From IMG/VR virus record IMGVR_UViG_3300008259_000096, positions 1 through 33,202 of that record: a DNA stretch of 33,202 bases, one strand, 5' to 3'. The position numbers were made by a program, and so were the translations under genes. Under the pieces are notes generated by a model. The model saw only the letters and a program-made list of their open reading frames with translations. It was not told where the DNA came from and made no database searches. Shown one piece after another: positions 8,911-32,665 of this stretch. This DNA is from a virus. The stretch's first letter is position 1; each line of letters begins with the position of its first letter.

Positions 8911-9893
8911 TATATTACTACCATTTGCGTGACTACATAGGAAGAAAGGATTTGATCTACATATAGATTCCCTGTTCCACGGTAAGACTCGCTTGTATAT
9001 TCAAACTGCCAATCAAATGACTGCACATTCTGAATATACTTATTCCTCCATGCCCTATCTTTCGAGAAGTAATCTTTAATTAAGTGGATTGTTGCTTCTT
9101 CTATTTCGTCTGGTATAAAGTCCCAGCCATATCTTCCCTGAACTTTATAGACATAATCTTTTTTAAACGCTACCCCAAATGTATCATTATACGAAGGTGG
9201 AACTAGGCCGTTTGCAGAATAAACTGTGTTATCAAGTAAATTAGCACGATTAACTCTAATACCAAAACCGCTTTCAGATACTTGAGTATCATATATCCAA
9301 TTATTTACATTATTAATAGTGTCTATAATTAAAACATCATTTTCGTAAAGTTCGTGCAGTGCGTTTATCTTAAACTGAAGTCTTAAAGAATCTGCTCCGT
9401 CTCCATAAACTATATGGGTATCATCGTATAAATAAAATGTTTGTCCAGTATAATTTTCAATTATCTTTCTGGCCCATTTTTCTGCCATTTGTATTTCATG
9501 ATATGTTTTAGCGTTAATATCGCCTGGGTCTGTTCCATATCCTAGATCATCCATAATATCGAACATGCTGGCATACGGAGTGACCACATCAATGTATGAG
9601 AAATGTGATCCGCTAATTCCACTAATTAGATAGTTCCATTGAATCTTAAACTTTTTATTTCTACGAACTAATCCTAATGGCAGGATTATTTGATATGTTC
9701 CAGCATCAACTTCTGACTTTGTTGCTGTTTCAATATATACTGCTGTGTTTGGATTTACCAATGGGGCAGCTGTAGGATCTTCTGTTATATCATAAACAAT
9801 TGCTGTTACATTGCCATCAGCATCTATAATATTACCGCCCCAGAATATCTTAGTTTTAATTGGTGCTGTTTGATCTACATATATCTCTGCCAT
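8910..9893 (-). CDS. Head-tail connector (adaptor) protein, two-domain
   Basis: 327 residues. The C-terminal part from about residue 105 (SMFDIMDDLGYG, then MAEKWARKIIENYTGQTFY and later a helix-rich segment) has the pattern of phage head-tail connectors of the HK97 gp6/SPP1 gp15 kind, which form a ring under the portal. The first 105 residues are a beta-sandwich-like extension (DQTAPIKTKIFWGGNIIDAD...), not usual for the minimal connector, resembling domains seen in phage structural proteins. The ATG at 9893 is 14 bases after the previous stop. Confidence 0.65.
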   Translation of the reverse strand: MAEIYVDQTAPIKTKIFWGGNIIDADGNVTAIVYDITEDPTAAPLVNPNTAVYIETATKSEVDAGTYQIILPLGLVRRNKKFKIQWNYLISGISGSHFSYIDVVTPYASMFDIMDDLGYGTDPGDINAKTYHEIQMAEKWARKIIENYTGQTFYLYDDTHIVYGDGADSLRLQFKINALHELYENDVLIIDTINNVNNWIYDTQVSESGFGIRVNRANLLDNTVYSANGLVPPSYNDTFGVAFKKDYVYKVQGRYGWDFIPDEIEEATIHLIKDYFSKDRAWRNKYIQNVQSFDWQFEYTSESYRGTGNLYVDQILSSYVVTQMVVI

Positions 9894-12837: not shown

Positions 12838-14418
12838 TTATTCTACCTGACTTCCGTCACCTTTTGGATTCCTGGCTTCCCCAGAAATATCTGGAGAATT
12901 ATTTTGTCTTTCTTGATCCCTAGTTCTTGTCTGTCCAGCCTGAGCTCTAATTTCTGCCTGCTGCTGAGGCTTTAATTGAATAACTTCATCTCCGCCTTCA
13001 ATTGCAATTTTACCCATTCTTAGACGAACTTCATTAGGGGTAATAACCTGCATTCTTAAATATCTCTCATCAATCTTTGACTGAGTATCTTCATCTGTAA
13101 GGCTAAGTTCATTAAATTTAATTTGAACGGCATCTGTTTTTTCAGCAATAATTAAATTAATTTTTTTCTCTAATCTCATTTGTGCTGGGCGACAAACCTG
13201 CTCTTTAAATGTTTTATCCGCATCTCTTGCTGCAGCTAAATTAATTCCTTCTGGAATACCAATTTTAGAAATTGGAGTTCTGTGTGCTAAAAGAATTTCA
13301 TCTCTATTTGCTTTACGATAAACATTAAATGATGATTCCTGTGCTCCAGCCTCAATTGGATCCATTTTAAATTCAACCTTTGAGTCAGGCGTATCTGGTG
13401 GAAGAGGGACATAAAGAGACCTATGGTTTTTGCCCTTTAGTCCAACCTGGAAAAACTCAAGCAATTTTCTTTCTGACTCTGGTGAAAGTTTGGCACCCTT
13501 AACAGTAATAATATATCTTGGAACAGCCTTGTTCTGGAAATAGTCAAGGTTGTACTGACCAGAAAATTCATTTCCTGCAAGAGCTACTTGTGCAGCAATA
13601 ATATCTGGAATACCGTAGTAATTATCCATAGGAGTATATTTCTTTAAATGAATAATTTCGTTTGGTCTATCTAGTCCGCCAGCAATTGGATTCGGTGTAT
13701 CTTGATCGCCAAAGTTTCTGAAGAAAACAGCCTTTCCGTAAAGCAACTGAATAAAGCCATCACGTAATCTTCTTACACGCATTGTCTTTGCTGGAATATG
13801 TCCAATGTATCCAATATCTCCACGAGTTGTTCTGCCTATTTCAATAAAGCCATTACCAGTTGCTTCTAAATCTGTATACGCTTTAATAAGAGTTTCTGTA
13901 AATGTTTCTTCATCATTTACATCCTCTAGCCACTGCTCTAAATCTTGTCTTAATTTGCCAAGCTTTTTTCTGGCTCTCTGTAATTGTTTTTCATCTGTGA
14001 TTCCGTCAAGGGCATCGTTTGTTTTTCTTGTCTCATCGAATTGATATCCTAGACCTACAATGTTTGCAACTTTTGCATTTATTGCTGCGTAGTTATATGT
14101 TGAAACTTCATAAATTTTTGATAGATACTCTAAGTTATATATTGGCTGAACCAGATCAAACATGGCGTAACCAGTTATTGCCTGTGCTAGCAAGTTTTGC
14201 TGTGTTGATGTACTATCTATTCCAGTAAAGGCTTTAGAAAATTCTCTGCCTATTTTTCTGCGAAATGCTGGGCTTAATCCGTTTAGCTTTCTAATGTCAT
14301 CTAATTGAATATTAAATGGATCATCATGCTCTGTTTCTTTCTTAAAAGAAAACCAATCAGCAGCACTAGATAGCTGAATTTCTTCATTTACTTCTGGGGT
14401 TTCATCAACATGTTCCAT
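12838..14418 (-). CDS. Portal protein
   Basis: 526 residues, a usual length for HK97/SPP1-type portals, the twelve-fold ring through which DNA enters the head. Clear family features are the N-terminal helices leading to a NYAAINAKVANIVGLGY segment, ATGNGFIEIGRT, the IIHLKKYTPMDNYYGIPDI block, and the later AHRTPISKIGIPEG and LIIAEKTDAVQIKFNEL regions. The C-terminus is polar and probably flexible (QQQAEIRAQAG, then a Gln/Arg/Asn-rich tail). Its start is two bases after the small upstream gene, so the two are probably coupled. Normally a terminase gene lies just upstream; here a LamG protein and a small unknown gene do. Confidence 0.92.
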   Translation of the reverse strand: MEHVDETPEVNEEIQLSSAADWFSFKKETEHDDPFNIQLDDIRKLNGLSPAFRRKIGREFSKAFTGIDSTSTQQNLLAQAITGYAMFDLVQPIYNLEYLSKIYEVSTYNYAAINAKVANIVGLGYQFDETRKTNDALDGITDEKQLQRARKKLGKLRQDLEQWLEDVNDEETFTETLIKAYTDLEATGNGFIEIGRTTRGDIGYIGHIPAKTMRVRRLRDGFIQLLYGKAVFFRNFGDQDTPNPIAGGLDRPNEIIHLKKYTPMDNYYGIPDIIAAQVALAGNEFSGQYNLDYFQNKAVPRYIITVKGAKLSPESERKLLEFFQVGLKGKNHRSLYVPLPPDTPDSKVEFKMDPIEAGAQESSFNVYRKANRDEILLAHRTPISKIGIPEGINLAAARDADKTFKEQVCRPAQMRLEKKINLIIAEKTDAVQIKFNELSLTDEDTQSKIDERYLRMQVITPNEVRLRMGKIAIEGGDEVIQLKPQQQAEIRAQAGQTRTRDQERQNNSPDISGEARNPKGDGSQVE

Positions 14419-14824: not shown

Positions 14825-16732
14825 TTAAACGTTTTGGATCACAATCCAGTCATTATCGAATACTTCGGCTGTATTTTCTGTCAGGGAGAATGACGGTTCA
14901 GATATAACAGTAGGGTCTCCATTTATATAAATTTGATAATGATCAGTAACTGTTGCAGAATCTAGCTCATAGCCGTATGTAGATATATATTGATATGAAG
15001 ACTCTGAAGCCCCATCAAGGGAATATCCTAGCTTAACTGAGTTCATGATTTGATTATCAAAAACCAGGACTACGTGATAAATTTCACCAGCCTTAAAAAC
15101 ATTTGATATTGATGTTTGAGATGTTTTATCTACTCCGTTTATATATATCTTTTTTATATTATTTTTAGTTATTGTTCCAGATGATGCCCATGTATATTCT
15201 ACCCCTATGTCTGGACTTGCTGGCCCTGCGTCATAGGAGGCCGTATAAGAAGAATTATATAGCCCACCGTCTGCCACAGCCAATCCAGTGTATGAGGTGT
15301 TATATAGTCCTCCTAGGACCTCTATAAAAGTAATTTCTTCTCTGTATACAAGACCTCCGCCAGATAGATCTTTTGGAGTATAGAAAAACTCCATTGATGT
15401 GCAAAGTCTTCCTAGATTTAAATAGAATCCAGAGTTTTCTTTTACTCGTATTCCACTATGCATATTCCTTGATAAAGCTGAGTATCTTTTATTTCCCGCA
15501 TATGCTTTTGCAAAATAGTCGGGGTCATCTGTCATTTGTGATATGTAACTAGAAGAGTTTGTAGCATAAATAATCTGTGATTTATAAAACTTAATTGTAA
15601 GGCTTTCCATAAAAGGATTATTTGTTTTATCGTTTGCTGTCTCAAAAAGCACCTTTATATAAAGGCTATACGATGCATTAAAATCTTCTCCGCTAGTAGA
15701 ATTTCCATACTGTGGTATTTTAGAGCCATTCTCACATTCAACATAGGTTATTCCATCAACACTTGAGTATACGGATACTCCTTCTGTCGCAGACCATTCT
15801 ATCTTGGAAGCGTCTATTCCATATTGTGATGGTATATATAAAAACTCAGTAAAAAATGCAGACTGAGAAGTTCCAGATCCAACAGGAATTTGTATTCTAT
15901 TTTTTATAAAATCATACTCTAGTCCTGCTGTAGTTAAATCTTTCCAGGGTTTTCTTGCTGGGTAGGAATACTCAAACTTAGTTGATATATTTGTATCGTA
16001 TATGTCAAACAGCTCTCCAAGGTCTGGAAAGGTCGTATTAAATGCTGGTAGTGACTGAGCTAAATTATAATGATTTTGTATTTGAGATTCTGATAAAGAA
16101 TATCTATATATAGCTACAGAATCAACTAAAAACTTATTTGATGAATTAGAAGTGGGTCCGCATTTTAGTGACAAAGATGAATTTGTAAATTTAAAATCAT
16201 TTAATGTTTTTGAAGCTTGTTTTTCTCCATCTATGTATATTGATATTTCTGACACCGAATAAACACATACAACATGTACCACACGGCTAAAATTAGATAT
16301 GGCAAAATCTACTCTAGAATCAATATTAGATAAACCTTTTAGTGCAAATGCCACGCCATTATTGTTCACAAAAAGTCCGACTCCGTTTGATGCATCTGCA
16401 ACTACTGGTTCCATTGTTGATGTTAAAGCTTTTGGATAGATAAAAGACTCTATCGTAAATGGGTTAAAAGAATAGCTACTATTTGCTATTGGGGTACCTT
16501 TACTTATTCCATAATAGTTATATGTTAGTGGAAAAGTTATACTTTGTGAGCTAGTTATTTCTACAGAATTTATTCCGCCATATGTGAGTGGCAGAGGAAA
16601 AGTAGAAACAGATTGTAAATATACGCCATTATTTCCACAACCAGATATATCTATAGCAGTAGTTCCAGACTGTTCATCTAGAAACCAAAACCCAAGTGGA
16701 TTATCTTTTATGACTGAGTATTTATAAGACAT
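14825..16732 (-). CDS. Large LamG/concanavalin-like domain protein, probable tail tip or adhesin
   Basis: 635 residues from the ATG at 16732. A longer frame from 16780 would overlap the preceding dioxygenase gene, and its extra residues are not domain-like. Residues about 7-240 have the classic LamG_3 signature (NPLGFWFLDEQSGTTAIDISG, later IYIDGEKQASKTL). The middle (about 250-400) is another beta-rich region, and residues about 430-625 look like a second ConA-like sandwich (FKAGEIYHVVLVFDNQ, YQIYING). Such domains bind glycans or are passive parts of host-recognition structures. It is the last gene of the dioxygenase run and the gene before the head block. Tyr, Ser and Asn are very frequent. 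Role as an adhesin is inferred. Confidence 0.75.
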   Translation of the reverse strand: MSYKYSVIKDNPLGFWFLDEQSGTTAIDISGCGNNGVYLQSVSTFPLPLTYGGINSVEITSSQSITFPLTYNYYGISKGTPIANSSYSFNPFTIESFIYPKALTSTMEPVVADASNGVGLFVNNNGVAFALKGLSNIDSRVDFAISNFSRVVHVVCVYSVSEISIYIDGEKQASKTLNDFKFTNSSLSLKCGPTSNSSNKFLVDSVAIYRYSLSESQIQNHYNLAQSLPAFNTTFPDLGELFDIYDTNISTKFEYSYPARKPWKDLTTAGLEYDFIKNRIQIPVGSGTSQSAFFTEFLYIPSQYGIDASKIEWSATEGVSVYSSVDGITYVECENGSKIPQYGNSTSGEDFNASYSLYIKVLFETANDKTNNPFMESLTIKFYKSQIIYATNSSSYISQMTDDPDYFAKAYAGNKRYSALSRNMHSGIRVKENSGFYLNLGRLCTSMEFFYTPKDLSGGGLVYREEITFIEVLGGLYNTSYTGLAVADGGLYNSSYTASYDAGPASPDIGVEYTWASSGTITKNNIKKIYINGVDKTSQTSISNVFKAGEIYHVVLVFDNQIMNSVKLGYSLDGASESSYQYISTYGYELDSATVTDHYQIYINGDPTVISEPSFSLTENTAEVFDNDWIVIQNV

Positions 16733-16746
16733 AATAAGATTATACC

Positions 16747-17295
16747 TTAGAAAGGCTCCTTGAAACAAAATATAGGACACATATATTTAGTGCCTTTTGT
16801 TACTGGTTTTGGATCGTGGTAGTATGGTGGATATGAAGGAAATATAATCATACTCCCAGCCTTTGGTTTAATATCAAGTCCTTGTTCTGGAAAGCATATG
16901 TTTCCACCTTCGTAGTCTTCATTTAAATACAAAACTATAGATATAGTTGGTGATTTTAATGCTGTCTTATCTATTGAGTCTACATGTGGGCCCATATAAG
17001 CATTTGTAGAATATTTTTGAATTCTATAAAACTCTGGTATCCATCCAAAAGATAGGCCTGTATTTGCTGTGTAGTCTTTCAAGCATTTATATACTAAATC
17101 TTTAATTGGATTTAAAATATGATCTGATAACTTCGGGTTTCCTCCAATGGAGTGACCATAATGAATTAATCCATCGCTGGAGAACCAATCTTTCCAATCA
17201 AGCGAAGGGTCTTTTAATAAATCTATATACTCGTTTTTATTCTCAAAAAGTTCTGTATAATAATATATATTGTCCTCTAGCTTTTGAGTATTCAT
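16747..17295 (-). CDS. 2OG-Fe(II) dioxygenase, prolyl-4-hydroxylase-like (no. 6 of the array)
   Basis: 182 residues, a single compact oxygenase domain. The metal triad is visible as H104-x-D106 (MGPHVDS) and H160 (YYHDPKP), and K170 in KGTKY is placed to bind the 2-oxoglutarate carboxylate, the residue type used by collagen prolyl hydroxylases. The intervening LYLNEDYEGGNICFP and KPKAGSMIIFPS strands are family hallmarks. Such enzymes use O2 and 2-oxoglutarate to hydroxylate a substrate. It starts three bases after the previous oxygenase stop. It is shorter than its neighbours because it lacks much of the variable N-terminal part. Substrate unknown. Confidence 0.88.
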   Translation of the reverse strand: MNTQKLEDNIYYYTELFENKNEYIDLLKDPSLDWKDWFSSDGLIHYGHSIGGNPKLSDHILNPIKDLVYKCLKDYTANTGLSFGWIPEFYRIQKYSTNAYMGPHVDSIDKTALKSPTISIVLYLNEDYEGGNICFPEQGLDIKPKAGSMIIFPSYPPYYHDPKPVTKGTKYMCPIFCFKEPF

Positions 17296-17298
17296 TTG

Positions 17299-18006
17299 TT
17301 ATTCGTTTTTGCCTTTATAGTTTGGTCTTAGACCCTTTTCTTTATCTTCTGCCCATAATTTATATTCTTCGTCTTGAGCTTTTCTTACTTCTGCCAATTC
17401 GTCAGCCCATTTTTTTCTCTGCTCATCAGTATAAACTGAATCTGCATTATCCCAAAACGAGCCTATTGTATATCTTGTACCACTTTTAATTTGTGTAACT
17501 TCATGCTCATTTCCATGACCTCCCGCAAATACTGCAAGCATGCCTATCTCTGGCTTTATACTAATATCATAATTTTTAAAGTTTAATATTCCTCCAGTAA
17601 AATCATCATTTAAATACATAAATGCTGCATACTTGCTTCTTTCAAATGCTGTTGGATTGCCTTCATCGTCTGAGTTATCTGAGTGAAATGAGGCAAATGC
17701 TCCTTCTATCCACTTCTGTGCATGATAACTAACCTCAGAAAGATCTTTACCTAAAACCTTTTCGCACGCATCTTTTATTCTAGAATTAAGTCTAGCAAAA
17801 TAGTCTGGGGGCAAGTCAAACATCACCAGCTTTGGATCTGACTCCCAGAATCCCATTGCATATGAGTCATAAAAAGATATTTGATTCCATTTTAAAAGAT
17901 TTGACTCTGCTAAAAATTCTAAATATCTAATTATCTTATTAGCTTCTTCTTTGGTTACAACGTCTGACACATGGAAAACATCTTCTTTGTGCTTAGTAAT
18001 TTTCAT
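17299..18006 (-). CDS. 2OG-Fe(II) dioxygenase, prolyl-4-hydroxylase-like (no. 5)
   Basis: 235 residues. H108-x-D110 (FHSDNSDDEG), H168 (GNEHEV) and R178 (SGTRYTIG) form an apparently complete iron and 2-oxoglutarate site; YLNDDFTGGILNF is the conserved strand turn. The C-terminus ends in a charged helix (EQRKKWADELAEVRKAQDEE) beyond the catalytic core, absent from most of the paralogues. The start overlaps the previous gene by 14 bases, which suggests coupled translation. An acidic DNSDDEGNP insert right after the HxD motif may shape substrate access. Function beyond hydroxylation-type chemistry is not shown. Confidence 0.88.
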   Translation of the reverse strand: MKITKHKEDVFHVSDVVTKEEANKIIRYLEFLAESNLLKWNQISFYDSYAMGFWESDPKLVMFDLPPDYFARLNSRIKDACEKVLGKDLSEVSYHAQKWIEGAFASFHSDNSDDEGNPTAFERSKYAAFMYLNDDFTGGILNFKNYDISIKPEIGMLAVFAGGHGNEHEVTQIKSGTRYTIGSFWDNADSVYTDEQRKKWADELAEVRKAQDEEYKLWAEDKEKGLRPNYKGKNE

Positions 18007-18775
18007 GCTTTTCCTCCATCTTATGATATCTCATGTTTTTAGGGTTTTCTATTTCAAGTCTTTCTTCTTCCATTTTAGCCCAACGAACCGCACCATAATG
18101 CCTTTGATTCTTTAACCATTCTTCCGAGCCAGCATATGGATAAAAAACAAAGTTTCTTACAAAAAATTTTTCCCCTGATGTAATTGTTTTAACTCCATGG
18201 AAATAAGGTTCTCCTGATGGGAAAACCAAAATATCTCCAGAGTCTGGCTTATAAGGATACGTTTCCCCATCCAATAAAAACTCTATTTCTCCACCAGTAT
18301 AATCGTCATTAAGATAGGTTGTGCATGTTAAAAAGAACTTAGGCCCTGGCATATCTTTTTCTGAAATCACATAATCTGTGTGATATTGCATGGACATATT
18401 ATTATTCATTACATCAATATTCGTATCATATTTTGAAAATGATGATGTAAGAAGTGAGGCACCTTCGGGAAGATTTAAATTATGTCTTTTTACATAATCA
18501 AATATTGCTTTTGAATAAGCCGCATAAACAGAGTCAGACAAATACTTTTCGTCATCGTACATTTGACCGTGTTCTCTTGGTTCGTTTGGATCATGTTTTT
18601 GCTGAGTATAGGCTCCAAATATCGACCACTGGTCCCATTCTCTTAAATAATATTTACCTTTTGAAGATGCATAAGATTCTTTAACTATTTCTGCCATTTT
18701 TTTTGAATCTGGAAGTAGGTTTTTGTAAACATCAACCATCGGATAAATTTCAAAAAAATCAAATTCATTACTCAT
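17993..18775 (-). CDS. 2OG-Fe(II) dioxygenase, prolyl-4-hydroxylase-like (no. 4)
   Basis: 260 residues, the longest of the set. H132-x-D134 (YHTDYVI), H193 (PYFHGVK) and K203 (SGEKFFVRNF, with R207 close by) make the expected site, and TTYLNDDYTGGEIEF plus KPDSGDILVFPSG are family marks. About 110 residues precede the core and about 45 follow. It overlaps the upstream oxygenase by eight bases and the downstream one by 14, so three oxygenases are chained by overlaps. HTD, HGV and the FPSG segments resemble small cyanophage and plankton-virus oxygenases; that comparison is from memory of the family. Confidence 0.88.
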   Translation of the reverse strand: MSNEFDFFEIYPMVDVYKNLLPDSKKMAEIVKESYASSKGKYYLREWDQWSIFGAYTQQKHDPNEPREHGQMYDDEKYLSDSVYAAYSKAIFDYVKRHNLNLPEGASLLTSSFSKYDTNIDVMNNNMSMQYHTDYVISEKDMPGPKFFLTCTTYLNDDYTGGEIEFLLDGETYPYKPDSGDILVFPSGEPYFHGVKTITSGEKFFVRNFVFYPYAGSEEWLKNQRHYGAVRWAKMEEERLEIENPKNMRYHKMEEKHENY

Positions 18776-19478
18776 GCTTATCTCTTTCTAATTCCGTAAC
18801 TGTCCAAAAAAGCGGGAATGTATACCTACATCCTTCTTTAACAACATTAACTCCATGAATATAGTGCATGTCTCCAGGGAAAAAATATGCTCCCCTGGCC
18901 TTAGTTTTAAACACTATGCTCTGCTTAGGAAAATATAGTTCTCCTCCAACATAGTCATCATTAATATAGAATACTGTTCCTATGTCATACCAAGGAAATT
19001 CGTTTTCTGTTCCAGCGTCTGGACCTTCATGAAGTTCTTTATCTGCGTGTGGGAATTGCATGGTTCCAACTGGCCATCTTACTATGGCTGGTGCAGCTGG
19101 TTGAACTGTAACATTAAATTTTTCTTCGATAATAGGCTGCATTCTATTTGTTAAGTTCTCTAGTATTTCAATTACTTTTTCGTCAGCCTTTTTCAATGTT
19201 CCAACTGTTGCAACACGATTTTCCCAAACCCTGTGGTCGTATATGATGTTGCCATTTTCATTCCATTGTGACTCCGTTATATCCCACAATGTGTTATTTT
19301 TAGCAAAATTTAAAAGGTATTCTTGCTCTTCAATTGTCATAAAATTTTCTAATTCTACGATATTATCTGAAGAGTTTCCAAAATAACCTGATGGAGTAAT
19401 TGACTTCCTGGCGTACCTTACTCTCTCTTGAACCTTTTGATTAGCATCTTGTATCATTCGTATACCTTTCTTTGCCAT
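18768..19478 (-). CDS. 2OG-Fe(II) dioxygenase, prolyl-4-hydroxylase-like (no. 3)
   Basis: 236 residues with an approximately 45-residue basic N-terminal extension before the oxygenase fold. H144-x-D146 (FPHADKE), H208 (HYIHGVN) and R218 (EGCRYTFPLFW) form the active site; YINDDYVGGELYFP and KARGAYFFPG follow the family plan. The start overlaps the end of the upstream DUF6065-like gene by 25 bases. Of the six it is closest to a classical P4H layout with an Arg anchor. Target unknown. Confidence 0.9.
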   Translation of the reverse strand: MAKKGIRMIQDANQKVQERVRYARKSITPSGYFGNSSDNIVELENFMTIEEQEYLLNFAKNNTLWDITESQWNENGNIIYDHRVWENRVATVGTLKKADEKVIEILENLTNRMQPIIEEKFNVTVQPAAPAIVRWPVGTMQFPHADKELHEGPDAGTENEFPWYDIGTVFYINDDYVGGELYFPKQSIVFKTKARGAYFFPGDMHYIHGVNVVKEGCRYTFPLFWTVTELERDKHE

Positions 19479-20185
19479 AATTTCTTTTTATATTGTCCGT
19501 TTTCAGTTGTTCTCAAAATTTTTGAAGCTTTATTTTTTATTTCATTCATTTCTTGTTCTTCTTTATAATCTAATTCCATATTCCAATCTTCTCTTTTAAA
19601 TGGAAATATTTGAAGATATGGTGTTCCTGCTGGCAATAAACCAGAAAAATCTTTTCTTAAAAAAAATGGAGTAAGGCCTGGTATTTCTAACATATCGCTA
19701 TCTATTATACCAGCAGTAGTTATAAAAGGTAAATCATATCTATTCATTGGAGACATAAAAATTGCACTATAACCCTTTTCTAATTTAACTCCCCAATTTG
19801 GATACCAATGAAAATGTTGTGCTTCGTATCCATAAGGAACCTCAAACCCTTCCATTGGAACCCTAGACCCAATAAAGCTTTCATATCCTGGCTCAGTTTT
19901 AGCCAACAATAAATTGTTTTGTGTATCCTTATAAAACATAATGTCACAGGGTGTCGTTAAGTAGTATCCGCTTAAAAATATGTCTAGCAAGGCTGGGCAA
20001 GACTTAAACCCAAGTATTTCTGAGCCCCATTGGTGCCTTAAAACTTCTTCCTTTCCTTCTTCCTTCCAATACTTATTTGCAGAAGAAAACCATTTGGGAA
20101 CTTGTCTTTTTCCTGGCTTGGGGGAAAGGTCTGGGTTATCATTGTTGTATAATTGATGAGAAACAAATGTTATTTTTTTATTCAT
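19454..20185 (-). CDS. DUF6065-like phage protein (second of an adjacent pair)
   Basis: 243 residues from the ATG at 20185; an in-frame TTG at 20197 would overlap the previous gene. Features include KPGKRQVPKWF near the N-terminus, YYLTTPCDIMF, FHWYPNWGVKLEKGYSAIFMSPMN, FITTAGIIDSDM and a closing LPAGTPYLQIFPFKRE, followed by a Lys/Glu-rich helix. The PMN...FITTAGI...AGTPYLQIFPF order parallels PVPN...FTTLIS...ANTPISSIIPI in the neighbouring gene, so the two look like diverged members of one fold. I know such proteins from phage genomes as conserved but uncharacterised. Sitting between oxygenases 2 and 3, it may take part in the same process. Confidence 0.65.
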   Translation of the reverse strand: MNKKITFVSHQLYNNDNPDLSPKPGKRQVPKWFSSANKYWKEEGKEEVLRHQWGSEILGFKSCPALLDIFLSGYYLTTPCDIMFYKDTQNNLLLAKTEPGYESFIGSRVPMEGFEVPYGYEAQHFHWYPNWGVKLEKGYSAIFMSPMNRYDLPFITTAGIIDSDMLEIPGLTPFFLRKDFSGLLPAGTPYLQIFPFKREDWNMELDYKEEQEMNEIKNKASKILRTTENGQYKKKLWQRKVYE

Positions 20186-20186
20186 A

Positions 20187-20882
20187 TTATTTTTCAATCA
20201 CCTTTAATTTAATTGATTTTACTTCATGGTTACCTAATTTATTTCCTTCTGGGTCTATAGCGTCTCTGTAAAAGTTTGTCCATAGTCCCTTAGAAGTTTT
20301 TTCTTTTACTATATCTAAATGTTTTTCACCATATTCACTAGGCTTTAATATCTCTATTCCAGAATAAGAAACACAAGACCCTTGAATTTCTGATAAAGAT
20401 ATTGGAATTATAGATGAAATTGGAGTATTTGCTTTAATTGTTATTATTTGATTTGGCTTTAATATTCTTAAAGCGCAGGGAAGTTCTCCTTGAAAAAATG
20501 AGGTGCTTATAAGAGTTGTAAATGATTGATATTCATCTGTAAATAAATTAGGTACGGGCATTTGCAACAAAGTAGTGTTTTCATTAGTTCTAAAAACCAA
20601 ACCTGTCTTGAAGCTTATTGTTCCATTTGCTCTGCCTAAATTACAATATTTATGCCCCGAAAGAACCCTAACGTGATGACTAGACGTATCTGATATTCCA
20701 TCCCAGACAAAAGATATATCTTCTGGGTATGATATTCCCCATCCCAGCGAATTTGTAAGTGTAACTGGAAAACATTTATAGGCATGGGCATCTACAGTAT
20801 TATCCATCCAATCTCTTTTTACGGAAAGCTGAGATATATTAGCAGAATCTTCTGTATTTTTATAAACTAAAATATCATACAT
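20187..20882 (-). CDS. DUF6065-like phage protein (first of the pair)
   Basis: 231 residues. Recognisable blocks are RDWMDNTVDAHAYKCFP, LGWGISYPEDISFVWDG, GLVFRTNENTTLLQMPVPN and IKANTPISSIIPISL, which I associate with the uncharacterised phage family DUF6065. Late residues (KTSKGLWTNFYRDAIDPEGN) are typical of the same family. No catalytic residues are evident, and the beta-rich plan suggests a small-molecule or glycan-binding sandwich. The start overlaps the preceding oxygenase by eight bases. Assignment to the family is from memory and should be searched. Confidence 0.65.
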   Translation of the reverse strand: MYDILVYKNTEDSANISQLSVKRDWMDNTVDAHAYKCFPVTLTNSLGWGISYPEDISFVWDGISDTSSHHVRVLSGHKYCNLGRANGTISFKTGLVFRTNENTTLLQMPVPNLFTDEYQSFTTLISTSFFQGELPCALRILKPNQIITIKANTPISSIIPISLSEIQGSCVSYSGIEILKPSEYGEKHLDIVKEKTSKGLWTNFYRDAIDPEGNKLGNHEVKSIKLKVIEK

Positions 20883-21540
20883 AATTCTCTGTATATCTTT
20901 TTTCGATCTCTCTGTATTCTGGAGTATGTGGTGCTTCTAAATAATCAAGCATGGTAACTATAGAGTATTTAGTGCCAGAAGTTACTGGCATCGCAGCATG
21001 AGAATATATAAATGATGAGGGGAATAAATAAAGATCTCCCGCCCTGGGCTTTATTTTTAAATTAAATTTGTCAAAAAATAGCTCGCCTCCTTCGTAGTCG
21101 TCATTAATATATCCAACTGAAGAAAGTACGCATATATAAGAATATCCGTGATCTGAATGAATTTGAAAATGTTGATCTTGGCCATATTTAATAAAGTTAA
21201 ATGATTCCCAATAGTTTAGAGGAGCCAAGCCAAACATTTGTCTATAGTCTTCTACTGGAGCTAACTGTACCTTGTACGAATCTTCCCAAATTTTTTCTAA
21301 CTTTAGAGTAGACTCACTTTTACCAGCATCATCCCATGTATTTTTTTTAATTTTAAAATCTGAACAATCTCTATATCTTTTATCTACCAAGGCATATCCA
21401 GTTTTTGCAGTTTTCCATTGATTTACATCAGAGCTATCTGATAAAGTTTCTTCTAGTCTATTAATTAAATTCATTTCTGGCGTAAATACATTTCTATAGA
21501 CAACAATACCTGGACCTAGAAATTCAGCATTACTTAACAT
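20875..21540 (-). CDS. 2OG-Fe(II) dioxygenase, prolyl-4-hydroxylase-like (no. 2)
   Basis: 221 residues. H128-x-D130 (IHSDHGYS), H181 (YSHAAMP) and K191 (SGTKYSIV) make up the site; GYINDDYEGGELFF and KPRAGDLYLFPSS are the core strands. It shares an opening (FLGPGIVVYRNVF, near residues 7-19) and the IYxHAAxP turn with oxygenase 1, so these two are the closest paralogues in the array and probably arose by tandem duplication. TTGGAG before the ATG is the ribosome binding site. The Lys anchor is like collagen P4H. The substrate is not indicated. Confidence 0.9.
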   Translation of the reverse strand: MLSNAEFLGPGIVVYRNVFTPEMNLINRLEETLSDSSDVNQWKTAKTGYALVDKRYRDCSDFKIKKNTWDDAGKSESTLKLEKIWEDSYKVQLAPVEDYRQMFGLAPLNYWESFNFIKYGQDQHFQIHSDHGYSYICVLSSVGYINDDYEGGELFFDKFNLKIKPRAGDLYLFPSSFIYSHAAMPVTSGTKYSIVTMLDYLEAPHTPEYREIEKRYTENYV

Positions 21541-21552
21541 TTATACTCCAAT

Positions 21553-22161
21553 TTATTTATATTGGTCACTTCTGTGACCCTTTTGTGTTCTATCGGTCAT
21601 TAAGGCCAATACATATTTTGTTCCCGCTTTAATTGGATATGCTGCATGTGCATATATATAAGCAGATGGGAAAACTACTAAATCTCCAGACTCTGGCTGA
21701 TAGTTAATGTCAAAGAATTTAAAGTGGAGGTTTCCTCCATCGTATTCATCATTTAGATATCCTACACAGGAGACAGTGTATCTAACATCTGGTCCGTCAT
21801 CTGTATGATAATTAAAAAAATTATTTACAGAGTATTTAATAACATTTAATGCTTCAAAATATTCTACTTTAACTGGATAATCTTTTTCATAGTCTAACAA
21901 ACATTCTTTAATTTTTATCATTACTTCATCGTATAACTCTAACAACTCTTTTGAGTTTTTTGCCTCTTTATCTAAAGAAATGTTGCTATACACAAAAGAT
22001 TGACAAAATCTACCTTCACCTTGATATAGGGAACTTTCATTGGTTTTAGCTTTAGCCCAAGAATCTCCTATATTTTGCTCATATCTTTCTACTAAATTCA
22101 TAGATTTTAAAAAAATATTTTTATATACTACTATACCTGGACCAATTATATTTTTTATCAT
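21553..22161 (-). CDS. 2OG-Fe(II) dioxygenase, prolyl-4-hydroxylase-like (no. 1)
   Basis: 202 residues. H119-x-D121 (NYHTDDGPD), H172 (YAHAAYP) and K182 (AGTKYVLA) form the iron and cosubstrate site, with GYLNDEYDGGNLHF and QPESGDLVVFPSA between them. It begins IIGPGIVVYKNIF, closely matching oxygenase 2. The start is one base after the stop of the six-cysteine gene. It heads the set of six. Confidence 0.9.
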   Translation of the reverse strand: MIKNIIGPGIVVYKNIFLKSMNLVERYEQNIGDSWAKAKTNESSLYQGEGRFCQSFVYSNISLDKEAKNSKELLELYDEVMIKIKECLLDYEKDYPVKVEYFEALNVIKYSVNNFFNYHTDDGPDVRYTVSCVGYLNDEYDGGNLHFKFFDINYQPESGDLVVFPSAYIYAHAAYPIKAGTKYVLALMTDRTQKGHRSDQYK

Positions 22162-22162
22162 A

Positions 22163-22408
22163 TTATTCTTGATCTTCTCTATGCCATTTACCTATAGGAC
22201 ACTCAGCATTTGAAAGAGTTGTTTTTGCAGGCATATAGCATTTACATTTATCGCACTGTTTTGTCGGCAAAAAAAATTCACAGCCCATGCAAAGACTCAT
22301 TCTTTTATCTATAATTGACTGCTCACGTATTTTTTTATTTGGGTCAATTAAGTGCCATGGCCTAGAATCACCTAAACTTTCTTTCCATTCTTTCCATTTA
22401 GACATCAT
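22163..22408 (-). CDS. Small six-cysteine zinc-ribbon-like protein (DUF6171-like)
   Basis: 81 residues. Six cysteines (C40, C43, C52, C55, C57, C70) in the order CMGC...CDKCKC...ECP, followed by GKW, match a small phage and bacterial family I recall as DUF6171, expected to bind one or two zinc or similar ions. The first 38 residues are a charged helix region. Two consecutive ATGs (22408 and 22405) may both serve as start. Its place at the head of the oxygenase run, one base before oxygenase 1, suggests co-expression; whether it supplies metal or binds a partner is unknown. Confidence 0.7.
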   Translation of the reverse strand: MMSKWKEWKESLGDSRPWHLIDPNKKIREQSIIDKRMSLCMGCEFFLPTKQCDKCKCYMPAKTTLSNAECPIGKWHREDQE

Positions 22409-22420
22409 TTATTCTTTCTA

Positions 22421-22843
22421 CTATTTTAATATTAAATTTTTGCTAGAGTCCCAGATATCTCCAAATCCAACGGAATCTTCTTTGGAAACATCTACTATAA
22501 TCACATTGCCATCAAAAGCTGCTCTGTACTTTGCAGAATTGATACTATCTTTATCCATAGATATGATACCAAAAATTTTATTGTTTGACAAGAACACGTA
22601 AGCAATATCATTGGGATTAAACTCTCTAACACCTTCTTGATTATCAATCATAAATTTATTATCTACTAACGTGGCGCCTATCTTAATATTATTAAGGTCT
22701 GGGGCCATAATAGCCTTTGATCCCATAGCAATTGACTCCCTATACCGTTTATCTATATCTGTATCTTTTTCAAAATACAATATATCAAATATTTCGTATA
22801 GACCTTCTTCTATTTCTATGCACAAAGCATATTTGCTTGTCAT
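22421..22843 (-). CDS. Unknown protein between the repeat fibre and the oxygenase array
   Basis: 140 residues, with no recognised domain. Alternating hydrophobic strands (YALCIEIEEGLYEIFDIL, IGATLVDNKFMIDNQEG, GNVIIVDVSKED) suggest a small beta-rich or alpha/beta fold. It has no cysteine cluster, signal peptide or membrane helix. It starts 20 bases after a small hairpin that follows the FFGPP-repeat gene and is separated from the next gene by only 12 bases. It resembles small accessory proteins near phage fibres, but no role can be given. Confidence 0.6.
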   Translation of the reverse strand: MTSKYALCIEIEEGLYEIFDILYFEKDTDIDKRYRESIAMGSKAIMAPDLNNIKIGATLVDNKFMIDNQEGVREFNPNDIAYVFLSNNKIFGIISMDKDSINSAKYRAAFDGNVIIVDVSKEDSVGFGDIWDSSKNLILK

Positions 22844-22883: not shown

Positions 22884-23768
22884 TTAACCGATACATGAAT
22901 TGCCTTCACAGTATGTTCCATATGGACACTGGAAAGAACAGAATGAAGGAGGAGAAAAGAACCCTGGCGGACCGAAGAACCCTGGCGGACCGAAGAAAGT
23001 AGGTGGACCGAAGAAAGTAGGTGGACCAAAGAAGTTTGGCGGACCAAAGAAGTTTGGCGGACCAAAGAAGTTTGGCGGACCAAAGAAAGTAGGTGGACCA
23101 AAGAAAGTAGGTGGACCGAAGAAGCTCGGTGGAGAGAAGAATGTAGTAACTGGTCCAACTCTTTTTGCCACAGATGTACCGTTGGCATTAAGAGCATATA
23201 TATCATAGCTTTGTGCAGATCCACCAGTTTCATCAATATTCTTTGAAGTTACAAGAATTCCAGTATACGAAGGTCCATCTGTAGAAGTCACTGTATAACT
23301 TGCTATAGCTTTTCCTCCAGTTGCTGGAGCATCCCATGTAATATCATCTCTATTTGCAACTGTTGAAGTAACTGAAGCTGTCTGAATTGCTTGAGGAACA
23401 GTCGTTGCTGTTACTGAAGATGATGTTGTGGATGCAGAAGACCCTACTGCGCTATTTGCAACAATTGTAAATGTATATGCTGTATTAGAGGCAAGGCCTT
23501 GGAATGTATATGGGCTTGAAGAAGCTGTTACAGTATATGTGCTTGGAGTTGTTGTAATTGTAAATGAGGATGCTGATGCAGATCCAGAAGGAACTGCAAA
23601 TGTTAATGTGACAGCTCCACCAGTTCCAGCCGCATTTGCCTCAGAAGTTGTATTTGCTGTTGCTAGATATGGTCTTGATGTCCCAACATCTGTTGCGCTA
23701 GATATAACTACTGCTTCTGGCTGACTTATCTGACCTGAAACTTTACCTGTTCTTTTACCTGCTGCCAT
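22884..23768 (-). CDS. Fibronectin-type fibre protein with eleven FF[G/S]PPx repeats and a cysteine-rich tip
   Basis: 294 residues. Residues about 30-125 and 128-208 are two fibronectin type III-like domains (GLASNTAYTFTIVANSAVGS; DDITWDAPATGGKAIASYTV). Residues 210-275 are eleven perfect hexapeptides FF[G/S]PP[S/T/N/G], and the last 19 residues carry four cysteines (C277, C281, C287, C292) in a small knot-like tip. There is no membrane segment. The block order suggests a shaft-mounted binding protein: FN3 spacers, a stiff proline-aromatic stalk, then a disulfide or metal tip. It lies directly after the main fibres and before the oxygenase array. The GPP triplets resemble prolyl-hydroxylase substrates. 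AGGAGAT precedes the ATG. Confidence 0.8.
   Translation of the reverse strand: MAAGKRTGKVSGQISQPEAVVISSATDVGTSRPYLATANTTSEANAAGTGGAVTLTFAVPSGSASASSFTITTTPSTYTVTASSSPYTFQGLASNTAYTFTIVANSAVGSSASTTSSSVTATTVPQAIQTASVTSTVANRDDITWDAPATGGKAIASYTVTSTDGPSYTGILVTSKNIDETGGSAQSYDIYALNANGTSVAKRVGPVTTFFSPPSFFGPPTFFGPPTFFGPPNFFGPPNFFGPPNFFGPPTFFGPPTFFGPPGFFGPPGFFSPPSFCSFQCPYGTYCEGNSCIG
22944..23141 (-). repeat. Eleven in-frame 18-bp tandem repeats encoding FF[G/S]PPx
   Basis: 11 x 18 bp exactly. Sixth residues read S,T,T,N,N,N,T,T,G,G,S from the N-terminal side, and identical neighbours are near-identical in DNA too, so the array grew by local duplication of single units. Copy number is likely to vary between relatives. 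Confidence 0.95.
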
Positions 23769-23787: not shown

Positions 23788-25749
23788 TTATGCTGTTGCT
23801 AAATCGCCGATTAATACCCAAGTGTTTGCTGCACGTTTGAAAAGTGTTGCAGATGACCACTGGGCTCTTAAGAAAGCTCCTGGAGTCGCATTTACTGTAA
23901 CCCCACCTGCTCCAACAATTCTAACTCCTCCAGTATTTGTTCTAAGAACATCTATGGCAGTGCCAATTGGGAAGTTTAGTGTTGAATCTGCTGGGATTGT
24001 TATATCTACTGCAGATCCACCTGTGTGTGAAACTTCAATTAGATCGTCTCTTTCTGTTAGAGCTGAAAGAGTATATGCTGCGGTCTTTTGAATAATTGTA
24101 GTCTGTGATGGTACGCCTTCTTTTGTTTGTGTTCCATCTGTAAAGACAACTCCTGCTGCGGTTAAGTTATTTAGCTGAAGGTTATCAAGTGATCCTTCAG
24201 TAAAATCAACCGTAGTTGTAGGTTCTGTTGTTACACCTTTAAATATCTTCCAAATATCAGCAGAAACATCTCTTACAAAACCTGAGTGTTTAGCTGTTCC
24301 GTCATTGTATCCAACCACAATACCAAGGTCAACTGTGTTTGCTGGATTTTGATGAGCTAACTGTACAAGACTGTCTTCGATTACAATAGATGTTGATGAT
24401 GCGTTAAAGGATGTACCATTAACTGTTAAATTCCCATCAACAACTACGTTGCCGTCAACTTCCATATTTCCAGTAAATGTTTGATTTGCTGCATTTAAAT
24501 AAGCTAGTTGTGCTGTATCAGAGATTCCATGAATAGATGTGGTATCTGTTGCATGTGAGCTTAAATCAGAAGATAATGCTTTTGCATCTAGTTGAGTCTG
24601 AATTGCTGAGGTAACTCCGTCAACATAATTAAGCTCTGTGGCAGTTGCTGTTACTGCAACATCTTCATTAATCTTTGGGCTTGTTAAAGTCTTGTTTGTT
24701 AAAGTTTGTGTATTACTTGCTGTTGTTAAAACAGAAGTATCTGAAATTCCGTGAACGTTTGTAGTGTCATTCTCGTGATTTGTTACTGCTGTGCCAATTG
24801 CTGAAGCTGCTGCGATTCCTGCTGCTGTGATAGCATTTGTCTGAGCATCTGATGCTTTTCCATCTGCATAAGATTGTGTTGCTAATAAGGATGTATCTGC
24901 AATACCGTGAATTCCAGTTGTGTCCGAAGCGTGTGAGTCTAGATTAGCAGAAGAAGCTTTGGCATCTAACTGAGTTTGAATTGCAGAAGTTACGCCATTA
25001 AGATATCCAATTTCAGTATCTGAAACATTTGCAACAACTGATTGTTTGCCATCTATCTGAGTTTGAATATTTGATGTGATACCTTGTAGGCGACCAATGT
25101 CAGTATCTGAGACACCAGCAACAAGTGGTTGCTTTCCATTTAGTTGTGTTTGAATTGCTGAAGATACTCCATTAAGATATCCAATTTCAGTATCTGAAAC
25201 ATCTGTAACTTTATCTTGCTTATTACTACCCAATGAGTTTAATGCATTTGCAATTGTTACAGCATAATTTTGATCATCATTAATTGCTGCCGCTAATTCA
25301 TTTAATGTATCTAATGCGCCTGGAGCACCATCAATTATTGCTGTAATATCTGATGTTAAAGCTACTGTACCTGTAGCATCTGGGAATGTAATTGTTCTGT
25401 CAGCTGTTGGGTTTGTAACAGTAAGAGTAGTTTCAAATTCATTATTTGTAGAGCCCTCAACAATAATAGATGCTCCTGGAACTAGAAGGTTCTTGCTTGA
25501 ATCTAGTCCTGCTACACCAGACACCGCTCCAATATCTGTTAGCTCTACATAATTAACTAACTGGTTTGAGAGATCAAGGAATCCTGGGTCATTGGCATAA
25601 CCTAATGCTGACCAAGTTGCTGTTCCATCACCGAACTTAATATACTTTGTGTCTGTCTCAAGACCCATTTCTCCAGCTTCTAAAACTGGGTTGGCGGAAG
25701 TCCATTGAGCCGCTGTACCTCTTCTTACTTGAATTCTTACTGTTGACAT
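23788..25749 (-). CDS. Long tail fibre with Mtd-like N-terminal module
   Basis: 653 residues. The start (STVRIQVRRGTAAQWTSANPVLEAGEMG...TKYIKFGDG) matches the N-terminal module known from the Bordetella phage major tropism determinant and many phage fibres. The middle is built of repeats: four copies of a SDTEIGYLNGV-SAIQTQL type unit, three of DTT-IHGI, and TQTLTNKTLTSP. The last 200 residues contain a DGNVVVDGNLTVNGT beta-helix-like part and a C-terminal strand domain (FPIGTAIDVLRTNTGG). These features fit a trimeric host-recognition fibre. A -10 box and AGGAG precede the ATG. Confidence 0.85.
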   Translation of the reverse strand: MSTVRIQVRRGTAAQWTSANPVLEAGEMGLETDTKYIKFGDGTATWSALGYANDPGFLDLSNQLVNYVELTDIGAVSGVAGLDSSKNLLVPGASIIVEGSTNNEFETTLTVTNPTADRTITFPDATGTVALTSDITAIIDGAPGALDTLNELAAAINDDQNYAVTIANALNSLGSNKQDKVTDVSDTEIGYLNGVSSAIQTQLNGKQPLVAGVSDTDIGRLQGITSNIQTQIDGKQSVVANVSDTEIGYLNGVTSAIQTQLDAKASSANLDSHASDTTGIHGIADTSLLATQSYADGKASDAQTNAITAAGIAAASAIGTAVTNHENDTTNVHGISDTSVLTTASNTQTLTNKTLTSPKINEDVAVTATATELNYVDGVTSAIQTQLDAKALSSDLSSHATDTTSIHGISDTAQLAYLNAANQTFTGNMEVDGNVVVDGNLTVNGTSFNASSTSIVIEDSLVQLAHQNPANTVDLGIVVGYNDGTAKHSGFVRDVSADIWKIFKGVTTEPTTTVDFTEGSLDNLQLNNLTAAGVVFTDGTQTKEGVPSQTTIIQKTAAYTLSALTERDDLIEVSHTGGSAVDITIPADSTLNFPIGTAIDVLRTNTGGVRIVGAGGVTVNATPGAFLRAQWSSATLFKRAANTWVLIGDLATA

Positions 25750-29348: not shown

Positions 29349-29585
29349 TTATTTGTTCTGAAATCCAAAGCTTTTATCGTTTGGATTTAGCGCCTTAAGG
29401 ATAACTGGGGCAACTGCGGCTACGCCTGCTGCGATCAAATCCTTTGGATTTGTATTTCCAGTCATATATAGAGCCATAGCTGCTGCTAAGAATGCTCTTC
29501 CATATGTACCTAATGCGCTTAGAATTTGCTCTTGCATTGTAACTTTCCCATCTTTGTTTAAATCGGCTTTATCGAATTTAGCCAT
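29349..29585 (-). CDS. EF-hand plus membrane protein, possible holin
   Basis: 78 residues from the ATG at 29585, chosen because TTGGAG lies nine bases upstream; earlier TTG and ATG codons overlap that site. Residues 8-19 (DLNKDGKVTMQE) form a textbook EF-hand calcium loop with D8, N10, D12, G13, V15, T16 and E19. Two short hydrophobic segments follow (about 30-45 and 54-68), then a polar tail NPNDKSFGFQNK. Small proteins of this plan are common in actinophages and are often called membrane protein or holin. It lies between nrdJ and the fibre genes, not beside the lysin-like gene, so a lysis role is unproven. Confidence 0.65.
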   Translation of the reverse strand: MAKFDKADLNKDGKVTMQEQILSALGTYGRAFLAAAMALYMTGNTNPKDLIAAGVAAVAPVILKALNPNDKSFGFQNK

Positions 29586-29601
29586 ATTTATCATCTCCAA
29601 T

Positions 29602-31675: not shown

Positions 31676-32665
31676 CTAGCTAAATTTTTTGAATATGTGA
31701 TCAAAAGAGTTCTTAGTCAACTCTAACCAATTATATTCTTCATGTATTTTAGTTGACTGAGCATAGTAATATCCAGAATATGCATTAAAGTTAAAGACAA
31801 CATCTCTCATAAGCTCAACTAGGTGTTGACGGTTTGGCTCAAAAACTTTGCCTTCGTGTGGAAATGGCCATGGAGAATCCACTAACTTTGATTTTAATTT
31901 TAATGGCCCTAAGTATTTTTCATAATGTGCCCAACTTGCTGTACATATAGTTGGCATTCCAGTAGCAAGAGCTTGAAGCGGAATAAAACCAAATCCTTCT
32001 CCATAACTTGGATACACTAAAACATCATGATCATGATATAGTCTAACTAACTCTAGATCACTTAGTTCTTCTGTTATAACCTTTACATTATTATAAATAT
32101 TTTGCGGTAAACCTATTATCTCTTTATCTATGTAGTTATTATAAACTCTGGTTGTATTATGATGATACGCTTTTATTGTAAGAGAATACTTAGGGTTATT
32201 TCCATAAAGTTCTCCAAACACATCCACCACCATTTGGCCAGCTTTTCTTGGTGCTGGTTCTCCAATGTGAAGAAACTTAATCTTATCTGATTCTCTTCTT
32301 CTTTTTGGCTTCCATATGTCTTGTATTCCATGTGGATAAACCTTAATATTTTTATATCCATTATCTTCAAAAACATTAGCACACCAGTCTGATGTTGTCC
32401 AAATTTCATCGCAGTGATCTAGCATATTTTTCCATTTATCTGGAATTTTTGTAGATTCCCACGGAGTATATCCTATTTGATATTGACCTCTGTGCATTTT
32501 AAAATGTTCTGGCTGAGCAAAATTTAATTGTACTGGAGCTTTTGGATAAGAATATGGAACCTCATGGCCTAACTCTTTTAACGAAGTAGCTATATTTGAT
32601 CCAGCATAACCATATCCATTAGAGTTCTTGAAGTTAATTGTAGGTGTAAAAAATGATATTTGCAT
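31676..32665 (-). CDS. GT4-type glycosyltransferase
   Basis: 329 residues with two Rossmann-like halves: residues about 1-125 (SNIATSLKELGHEV, QIGYTPWESTKIPDKW, YPHGI) and the C-terminal GT4 donor-binding half (FLHIGEPAPRKAGQ, LVRLYHDHDVLVYPSYGEGFGF). GT-B retaining enzymes of this type transfer a sugar from a nucleotide donor. The usual EX7E motif reads E223...Q231 here, with Gln in place of the second Glu. No signal or membrane segment is seen, so it is likely cytosolic. The target could be phage DNA, a virion protein or a host surface glycan; nothing in the sequence decides. It is the first minus-strand gene from the divergent region. Confidence 0.88.
   Translation of the reverse strand: MQISFFTPTINFKNSNGYGYAGSNIATSLKELGHEVPYSYPKAPVQLNFAQPEHFKMHRGQYQIGYTPWESTKIPDKWKNMLDHCDEIWTTSDWCANVFEDNGYKNIKVYPHGIQDIWKPKRRRESDKIKFLHIGEPAPRKAGQMVVDVFGELYGNNPKYSLTIKAYHHNTTRVYNNYIDKEIIGLPQNIYNNVKVITEELSDLELVRLYHDHDVLVYPSYGEGFGFIPLQALATGMPTICTASWAHYEKYLGPLKLKSKLVDSPWPFPHEGKVFEPNRQHLVELMRDVVFNFNAYSGYYYAQSTKIHEEYNWLELTKNSFDHIFKKFS

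Follow-up and report, generated by a model that had tools for sequence, protein, structure and literature searches.

Six genes for 2-oxoglutarate- and Fe(II)-dependent (2OG) oxygenases, here called A1 to A4, A7 and A8, form a run at positions 16747-22161 of IMG/VR record IMGVR_UViG_3300008259_000096, a 33,202-nt stretch of DNA from an uncultured phage with tailed-phage genes; "the window" below means this whole stretch. Upstream of the oxygenases in transcription, with two small genes between, is a gene for a fibronectin-III (FN3) protein that carries a repeat of FFxPPx hexads (Table 1). The pairing of such enzymes with this repeat recurs in other phages, which suggests chemical decoration of tail proteins after their synthesis. 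We favor the possibility that this run encodes a cassette for hydroxylating tail proteins, the aromatic-proline repeat being its main substrate, and we put the chances of this at somewhat better than even. The genes and their motifs, the predicted fold of A7, the conservation of the set, and its linkage to and covariation with the repeat were observed; the substrate, the reaction, the location in the virion and the benefit are what we infer.

The linkage was seen when IMG/VR was searched for DNA encoding three FFxPPx hexads, with no reference to oxygenases. Among the matches listed there were 116 new loci, 111 with a qualifying open reading frame (ORF), and 93 of these 111 had a 2OG gene as judged by a profile built from this phage group. 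Only loci with room, meaning at least 3 kb of contig on the side in question, were counted here: 57 of 63 had a 2OG gene no more than 3 kb downstream, and none of 47 had one that near upstream. As controls, tail fibres with the motif DAATKAYVD had a 2OG gene downstream in 0 of 37 cases and upstream in 1 of 63, and GPT repeats had one downstream in 5 of 53 and upstream in 2 of 55. A check against Pfam gave PF13640 in all 28 hand-picked FFxPP records, above the cut-off in 27. For four of the six exceptions, a different FFxPP gene on the contig has a neighbouring 2OG gene: L144 and L178 themselves hold this second gene, and the contigs of L182 and L193 are those of L123 and L227 (loci are labelled L, records and contigs G). 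Backbone markers of the window's phage group (capsid, portal, the genes at 11475 and 14421, LamG and tape measure) were found in 22 of the 111 loci, all 22 with a 2OG gene, and a further 56 had only DUF6065-like markers (D5, D6; Table 1), with a 2OG gene in 55. The possibility that FFxPP is a general property of cells was rejected: the DNA pattern matched 11 contigs of bacterial genomes, eight of which give a repeat ORF (by eye, low-complexity or antisense frames), and no 2OG gene was found in any of the 11 stretches. A literature search found no paper on an FFxPP repeat in phages.

The association is also seen in a second lineage. No match to the window's capsid protein was found in G034, G036, G039 and G042 (105, 98, 205 and 162 kb), and a head or tail-tube-like protein of G034 is related to Moorella and Bacillus phage proteins. 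Five loci of this kind (L142, L144, L171, L181 and L204) have a short FFxPP protein with a convergent 2OG gene after it and then a second one; a DUF6065-like protein is present in four of the five, L171 ending there, and three of these proteins aligned to D6 at 27-29%. Nine second-lineage oxygenases from three of these loci were placed in a tree: three joined the A4 class (support 96), another three grouped with A7/A8 (support 90), and the remaining three sat on long branches elsewhere. The core shared by both lineages is therefore the FFxPP repeat, an A7-type enzyme, an A4-type enzyme and a DUF6065-like protein. A loose sequence signature of the second lineage was present in 11 of the 111 loci, 10 of them with a 2OG gene. 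A search of ten FFxPP records for a T4-type portal gave no match, and its controls gave none either.

Repeat and enzymes also vary together. Among 33 capsid-selected contigs, 17 had FFxPP with at least four PF13640 genes (all 17 in fact with at least five), none had FFxPP with fewer, eight had at least four such genes and no FFxPP, and eight had fewer than four and no FFxPP (one-sided Fisher test, 0.0009, uncorrected for kinship or early contig ends and with several short fragments in the sample). Two of the cassette-bearing contigs that lack FFxPP, G011 and G024, carry a variant FFPPYFP repeat; in the other six the outermost listed oxygenase is less than 2 kb from the contig end, and the repeat gene may therefore have been cut off. 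The homologous FN3 protein of G020 and G021 bears a TPFGF repeat and no PP at all, and in these contigs the usual enzyme set is absent. What follows downstream in G021 is a group of D5-like genes, unknown proteins, a glycosyltransferase-like gene (below cut-off), two 2OG genes and a short-chain dehydrogenase; the best window matches of these two replacement oxygenases are A4 and A7, at only 30-41% identity. G012 and G026 have no oxygenases, and their FN3-related proteins are also without the repeat. Thus, repeat type and enzyme set change together, in a few sub-lineages.

Several observations weigh against a cassette dedicated to the repeat: (i) L207 and L210 have room and no match to the 2OG profile within 3 kb, a gene some 2 kb downstream in L207 matching PF13640 weakly, at a sub-threshold 24.2 bits; (ii) the 111 loci are not independent, as some contigs give two and L189 is a near-identical copy of the window; (iii) in the 33 loci with neither type of marker, many of them short, a 2OG gene was present in only 16; (iv) the same genomes hold further 2OG genes far from any FFxPP gene, and G004, G020 and G021 have two near LamG with no FFxPP found; (v) GPT collagen-like repeats, too, have a 2OG gene downstream in the five control cases given above; (vi) the prolyl 4-hydroxylase (P4H) fold spans oxygenases with other substrates; (vii) the FN3 repeat protein is placed in the virion by gene position; and (viii) six enzymes exceed the need of one repeat. 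It may also be that the linkage reflects a module that travels as a block, the repeat being a hitchhiker. Synonymous divergence between the window and L089 was 0.44-1.54 in the cassette and 0.04-0.13 in the capsid, portal, LamG and small genes, as if the cassette had been exchanged whole. A similar jump was seen with L091 (0.4-1.5 in the cassette; 0.04-0.13 in portal, LamG and small gene), and with L090 the contrast was weak (portal 0.78, LamG 1.09). A travelling block alone, however, would account neither for the second lineage nor for repeat and enzyme set changing together.

A related alternative is that the enzymes do modify tail-region proteins, but mainly LamG and further fibre domains, or non-proline residues (Asp, Asn, Lys or aromatic), with FFxPP merely traveling alongside. 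A1 to A3 are the oxygenases nearest the LamG gene, LamG follows the oxygenases in nearly every mapped cassette that reaches that far, and the two 2OG genes of G004, G020 and G021 are near LamG (one gene away where read). We nevertheless consider this alternative unlikely, given that four cassette-less relatives keep LamG homologues, that in the second lineage the FFxPP gene is directly beside a 2OG gene, and that linkage to 2OG genes is slight or absent for GPT repeats and DAATKAYVD fibres.

With regard to the enzymes themselves, a reading of the window from sequence alone (the sequence-only reading) had proposed six neighbouring, divergent 2OG-Fe(II) dioxygenases with intact active sites. All six ORFs were confirmed where it had placed them, on the minus strand, and all match 2OG-Fe(II) oxygenases. 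An alignment shows that each of the six has HxD, the distal H and, ten residues beyond this H, a K or R. PF13640 (2OG-FeII_Oxy_3) matches five of them above its 27-bit cut-off (E 3e-8 to 2e-12); A4 reaches 18.9 bits with this model (E 0.003) and matches phrog_61 at 2.7e-10. The genes do lie in a single minus-strand run, although it is interrupted by two DUF6065-like genes, the order in transcription being A8, A7, D6, D5, A4, A3, A2 and A1, then the LamG protein, a small protein and the portal gene. The suggestion that A1 and A2 are a recent pair was overstated, as they are only 21% identical. Pairwise identity among the six is 17-38%, A7 and A8 being closest (38% over about 200 aa) with a long branch between them in the tree; we therefore saw no recent duplication and rejected one as the origin of the run. 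Some PHROG families that match the window oxygenases bear the names "ferrochelatase", "DNA endonuclease" and "DNA endonuclease V". In GenBank, cyanophage genes that match A7 carry a ferrochelatase label, which is probably wrong for such 2OG genes.

The idea that the six are not redundant copies was supported. Relatives were drawn from IMG/VR by a capsid-based search (best 80 of 599 loci) and a DUF6065-based search (28 loci). In a tree of 153 oxygenases the window's six fall into five classes (A7, with A8 nearby, A4, A3, A2 and A1), each represented in most of the phages sampled; the tree was made by a quick method, many of its deep forks are weak, and some non-cassette genes fall in or next to the A3, A2 and A1 classes. 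Gene maps show these classes recurring together, and where the contig is long enough the usual order is FN3 repeat protein, A7 type or types, D6, D5, A4, A3/A2, A1, LamG and portal. A7-like enzymes come first after the repeat gene in many relatives. Cassettes usually have four to nine oxygenases, with some losses and additions, and D5 is missing in some. Against three close relatives the ratio of non-synonymous to synonymous substitution rates (dN/dS) was 0.05-0.28 across all six genes. The HxD...H triad is kept in 399 of 400 scored distinct homologues (L006-L231; 460 distinct, 60 unscorable) and in 430 of 437 over all loci, and the anchor column has K or R in 668 of 668 rows with a letter, duplicates included; these shares are upper bounds because the profile used to gather the sequences favours such motifs. 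Since five classes are kept together with dN/dS below 0.3 and triads intact, the six are not redundant, and chance is not an issue, as many related contigs retain orthologues whose triads are intact. That they have different targets or carry out successive steps remains the inference that the sequence-only reading made of it.

The same reading had held that a concerted system would be unlikely if most copies were lost or broken in relatives, and this is mostly not what we found. Among 34 loci selected by capsid protein, each extending 7 kb or more beyond the capsid gene on its upstream side, 30 carry oxygenases; the run is wholly absent in four (L018, L065, L073 and L074) and three have only two oxygenases (L027, L037 and L041). 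Eight capsid-matching records of 107-120 kb have 8-15 PF13640 genes each (G001 8, G003 11, G007 12, G011 10, G013 10, G044 13, G046 8, G054 15), the count in G054 (106,679 bases) being the highest seen here. In two of the cassette-less loci the slot has other contents: in L018 (130-3947), by eye, a radical-SAM-like gene and two oxygenase-looking proteins with no Pfam match, and in L065 (1599-2612) a GPT collagen-like repeat protein.

The sequence-only reading had called for structure prediction, and for A7, the one of the six that was modelled, the AlphaFold2 (AF2) model (confidence score pLDDT 90.9) has a double-stranded beta-helix for which peptidyl prolyl hydroxylases are the top structural matches. 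These include the Pseudomonas putida P4H bound to EF-Tu (4iw3; Z 18.7, root-mean-square deviation 2.9, 184 residues), an animal HIF prolyl hydroxylase (Z 18.7), a Chlamydomonas P4H with (Ser-Pro)5 (Z 18.2) and the viral P4H of PBCV-1 (Z 16.3). The PKHD-type PiuC reaches Z 16.2 as well. In agreement with the fold, a profile of the six sequences matches P3H1 at 6.5e-12 and a Bacillus anthracis P4H at 1.2e-10. The oxygenases are accordingly predicted to be of the peptidyl-prolyl-hydroxylase type.

Given that the EF-Tu complex is among the two best structural matches of A7, and that a PDB title states that a prolyl 4-hydroxylase modifies EF-Tu, one could imagine host proteins, EF-Tu or ribosomal proteins among them, as targets of the phage enzymes, which would so steer translation or stress responses. 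We think this improbable in view of the position of the genes in the tail block, the co-occurrence of the repeat protein, the variation of the enzyme set with repeat type and the presence of several divergent classes together. Equally improbable, in our judgment, are small molecules as substrates (sugars, lipids or others, such as surface- or fibre-glycan units), the enzymes working in concert with the glycosyltransferase encoded in the window at 31676-32665 and the sulfotransferase-like genes of some relatives. This proposal draws on that glycosyltransferase and on L116, where a sulfotransferase (Pfam Sulfotransfer_2; 350-1060) directly follows the FFxPP gene; yet it is peptidyl hydroxylases that lead the fold and profile matches, and Streptomyces phage Sham has glycosyltransferases and no 2OG gene in the 33 kb around its capsid gene. 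Proteins in L158 and L188 have first residues similar to those of the L116 sulfotransferase, and candidate sulfotransferase-like proteins with no Pfam match are found beside other 2OG genes in G007 (near 9720) and G013 (near 13389).

There is precedent for phages with several 2OG genes. Cyanophages have up to five 2OG oxygenases each, and it was proposed that these modulate 2-oxoglutarate or repair DNA (PMC3037559). That the window's oxygenases are likewise auxiliary metabolic genes, drawing down 2-oxoglutarate or serving DNA repair, has the merit of being a published explanation, but we regard it as very improbable; it leaves the FFxPP linkage, the ordered classes and the tail position unexplained, and the single weak match to 2OG-FeII_Oxy_2, an AlkB-like model, is far below its cut-off (16.2 versus 31.2 bits). 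The T4-like cyanophages resemble the window in having several 2OG genes per phage, and cyanophage S-SCSM1 has some beside its tail-fibre genes. They differ in that their matches to A7 are 25-33% identical (40 phage records, mostly cyanophages, among the matches listed); A4 matched one uncultured marine virus only, and tblastn searches with A7 and A4 thus gave no orthology to the cyanophage-type set. No Pro-Pro-rich ORF was found in the 10 kb of S-SCSM1 that was read.

A plausible scenario for the hydroxylation cassette that we favor is as follows. The oxygenases would be made together with the tail genes, and the A7 type, probably with the A4 type, would hydroxylate the FFxPPx prolines of the adjacent FN3 protein during its synthesis. 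A1 to A3 and A8 may serve further sites in that repeat, may catalyse successive steps, or may modify LamG and fibre proteins nearby; D5 and D6 could be helpers that are not oxygenases themselves, or binding partners. With hydroxyproline the repeat would become stiffer and gain hydroxyls for later chemistry, the outcome being a hydroxyproline-rich, stiffer or stickier adhesin region and possibly a platform for further decoration. The sulfotransferase that follows the FFxPP gene in L116 fits such further chemistry on hydroxyls and suggests hydroxylation followed by sulfation. A more ambitious version, which we put forward only tentatively and with less than even confidence, is a multi-enzyme assembly line in which an aromatic-proline tail repeat is turned into a hydroxyproline-rich adhesin, much as in plant and algal wall proteins, by several dedicated hydroxylases per repeat, with sulfation as a later step in some relatives; enzyme set and repeat would coevolve as a swappable module that helps to set host binding.

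Table 1. Genes of the oxygenase run and its neighbours in the window.
Feature	Coordinates	Strand	Evidence
LamG/concanavalin-like tail-region protein, directly downstream of run	14825..16732	-	Laminin_G_3 58.5 bits; retained in cassette-less relatives
A1, 2OG-Fe(II) oxygenase (P4H-like), 182 aa, last of run, adjoins LamG gene	16747..17295	-	PF13640 47.4 bits; HxD...H and K; orthologue clade; dN/dS 0.13-0.28
A2, 2OG-Fe(II) oxygenase, 235 aa	17299..18006	-	PF13640 34.9 bits; triad; dN/dS 0.08-0.11
A3, 2OG-Fe(II) oxygenase, 260 aa	17993..18775	-	PF13640 37 bits; triad; dN/dS 0.07-0.08
A4, divergent 2OG-Fe(II) oxygenase, 236 aa	18768..19478	-	phrog_61; triad; in tree with second-lineage enzymes, support 96
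D5, phrog_7084 protein, distantly DUF6065-like, 247 aa	19454..20197	-	phrog_7084, E 3.7e-33
D6, DUF6065 protein, predicted dUTPase-like fold, 231 aa	20187..20882	-	PF19541 90 bits versus 26.6 cut-off; AF2 pLDDT 84
A7, 2OG-Fe(II) oxygenase, 221 aa, predicted P4H fold	20875..21540	-	PF13640 48.2 bits; AF2 pLDDT 90.9
A8, 2OG-Fe(II) oxygenase, 202 aa, first of run, distant A7 paralogue	21553..22161	-	PF13640 40.5 bits; 38% to A7
Small cysteine-rich protein (DUF6171 below cut-off), between repeat gene and oxygenases	22163..22408	-	Pfam/PHROG scans
140-aa protein, between repeat gene and oxygenases	22421..22843	-	no Pfam or PHROG match
Fibronectin-III protein, 11 FFxPPx hexads, Cys-rich end, candidate substrate	22884..23768	-	fn3 37.3 bits; repeat count
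Tail-fibre-like protein with Mtd_N domain, directly upstream of repeat gene	23788..25749	-	PF18454 63 bits; PHROG tail families

The LamG ORF (Table 1) opens at 16780, and several homologues start at the position of Met 16732. Mtd_N is the N-terminus of the major tropism determinant, and further fibre-like genes lie upstream of the Mtd_N gene in transcription. The repeat DNA of the FN3 gene spans 22948-23141, where the search pattern matches 9 times against an expectation of 0. No collagen-like Gly-X-Y pattern was found in this repeat, which consists of FFxPPx hexads instead. A plus-strand GGPKK frame overlaps the repeat on the opposite strand; that FFxPP is an antisense artefact in the window is nonetheless unlikely because the minus-strand ORF has an fn3 domain, codirectional neighbours and dN/dS of about 0.2. 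In many relatives (L092-L111 and G001, G011 and G021) the FN3 repeat protein is extended C-terminally by what looks Hint/intein-like by eye. We do not claim such a domain, as Intein_splicing matched below threshold (0.0012) in one of three that were checked.

The two DUF6065-like genes call for separate comment. D6 is likely a dUTPase-like scaffold and not an oxygenase: its model matches dUTPases with Z of about 11.5 (Foldseek E 5e-5), so that DUF6065 as a degenerate 2OG enzyme is unsupported, and no dUTPase Pfam model matched the D6 sequence at E 1. D5 has no Pfam match and gave none in a search against solved structures; D6 is weakly related to phrog_7084 and had no match in the phage collection. 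D5 has relatives in haloarchaeal tailed viruses: of 50 phage records with a match, 48 take their names from halophilic hosts. These relatives are 23-26% identical among the matches listed; one that was checked is near thymidylate synthase and DNA polymerase B genes. A literature search for DUF6065 found no paper.

The phage probably infects actinobacteria. Such a host would fit the occurrence of WhiB, an actinobacterial marker: a search of 15 relatives found it in 6, namely G004 and all five that measure 112-120 kb, and it was present in three of ten FFxPP records (G039, G044 and G047); among those ten it was not found in the second-lineage records G034, G036 and G042. The window's major capsid protein is 57-62% identical to Streptomyces phage homologues among the matches listed. 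Sham, the only capsid relative whose taxonomy was read, belongs to the Stanwilliamsviridae and resembles the window in its order of glycosyltransferase, ribonucleotide reductase, portal and capsid genes; it differs in that the 33 kb around its capsid gene have no 2OG gene, annotated or profile-matched. Streptomyces phages were absent among 199 phage records matching A7. Beside the window's tail genes, at 29349-29600, there is a small protein with a sub-threshold EF-hand match (21.3 versus 25.9 bits).

Virus-encoded enzymes of the prolyl-hydroxylase type are known. The vCPH of PBCV-1 (PDB 5c5t) shares the P4H fold with A7; it is a single enzyme of an algal virus, whereas the window has five orthologue classes in one phage gene run beside a repeat protein. 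Going by entries in the reference list of PMC7019647, peptide substrates are known for the PBCV-1 enzyme and no hydroxyproline was detected in PBCV-1 particles. The P4Hs of Chlamydomonas and plants have the same fold, including the complex with (Ser-Pro)5. These enzymes act on proline-rich repeat proteins, the hydroxyproline-rich proteins of the wall; they differ from the system proposed here in being cellular and eukaryotic, with a different repeat and no tail proteins. Collagen-like phage tail proteins are similar in bearing proline in their repeats and differ in that these are of the Gly-X-Y type. As judged from sequence, what appears to be new is an ordered, multi-class cassette tied to a tail-protein repeat, and a search of the literature (titles and abstract openings) found no publication on such an oxygenase-repeat cassette.

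2OG oxygenases are recurrent and unexplained in phages, where they are often filed as auxiliary metabolic genes, and the linkage of repeat and enzymes names a specific candidate substrate for them. If our reading is correct, a role would be suggested for DUF6065, and "ferrochelatase" and similar labels on genes matching A7 would be called into question. It would also mean that phage tails carry enzyme-made hydroxyproline and that phages tune adhesion by post-translational chemistry.

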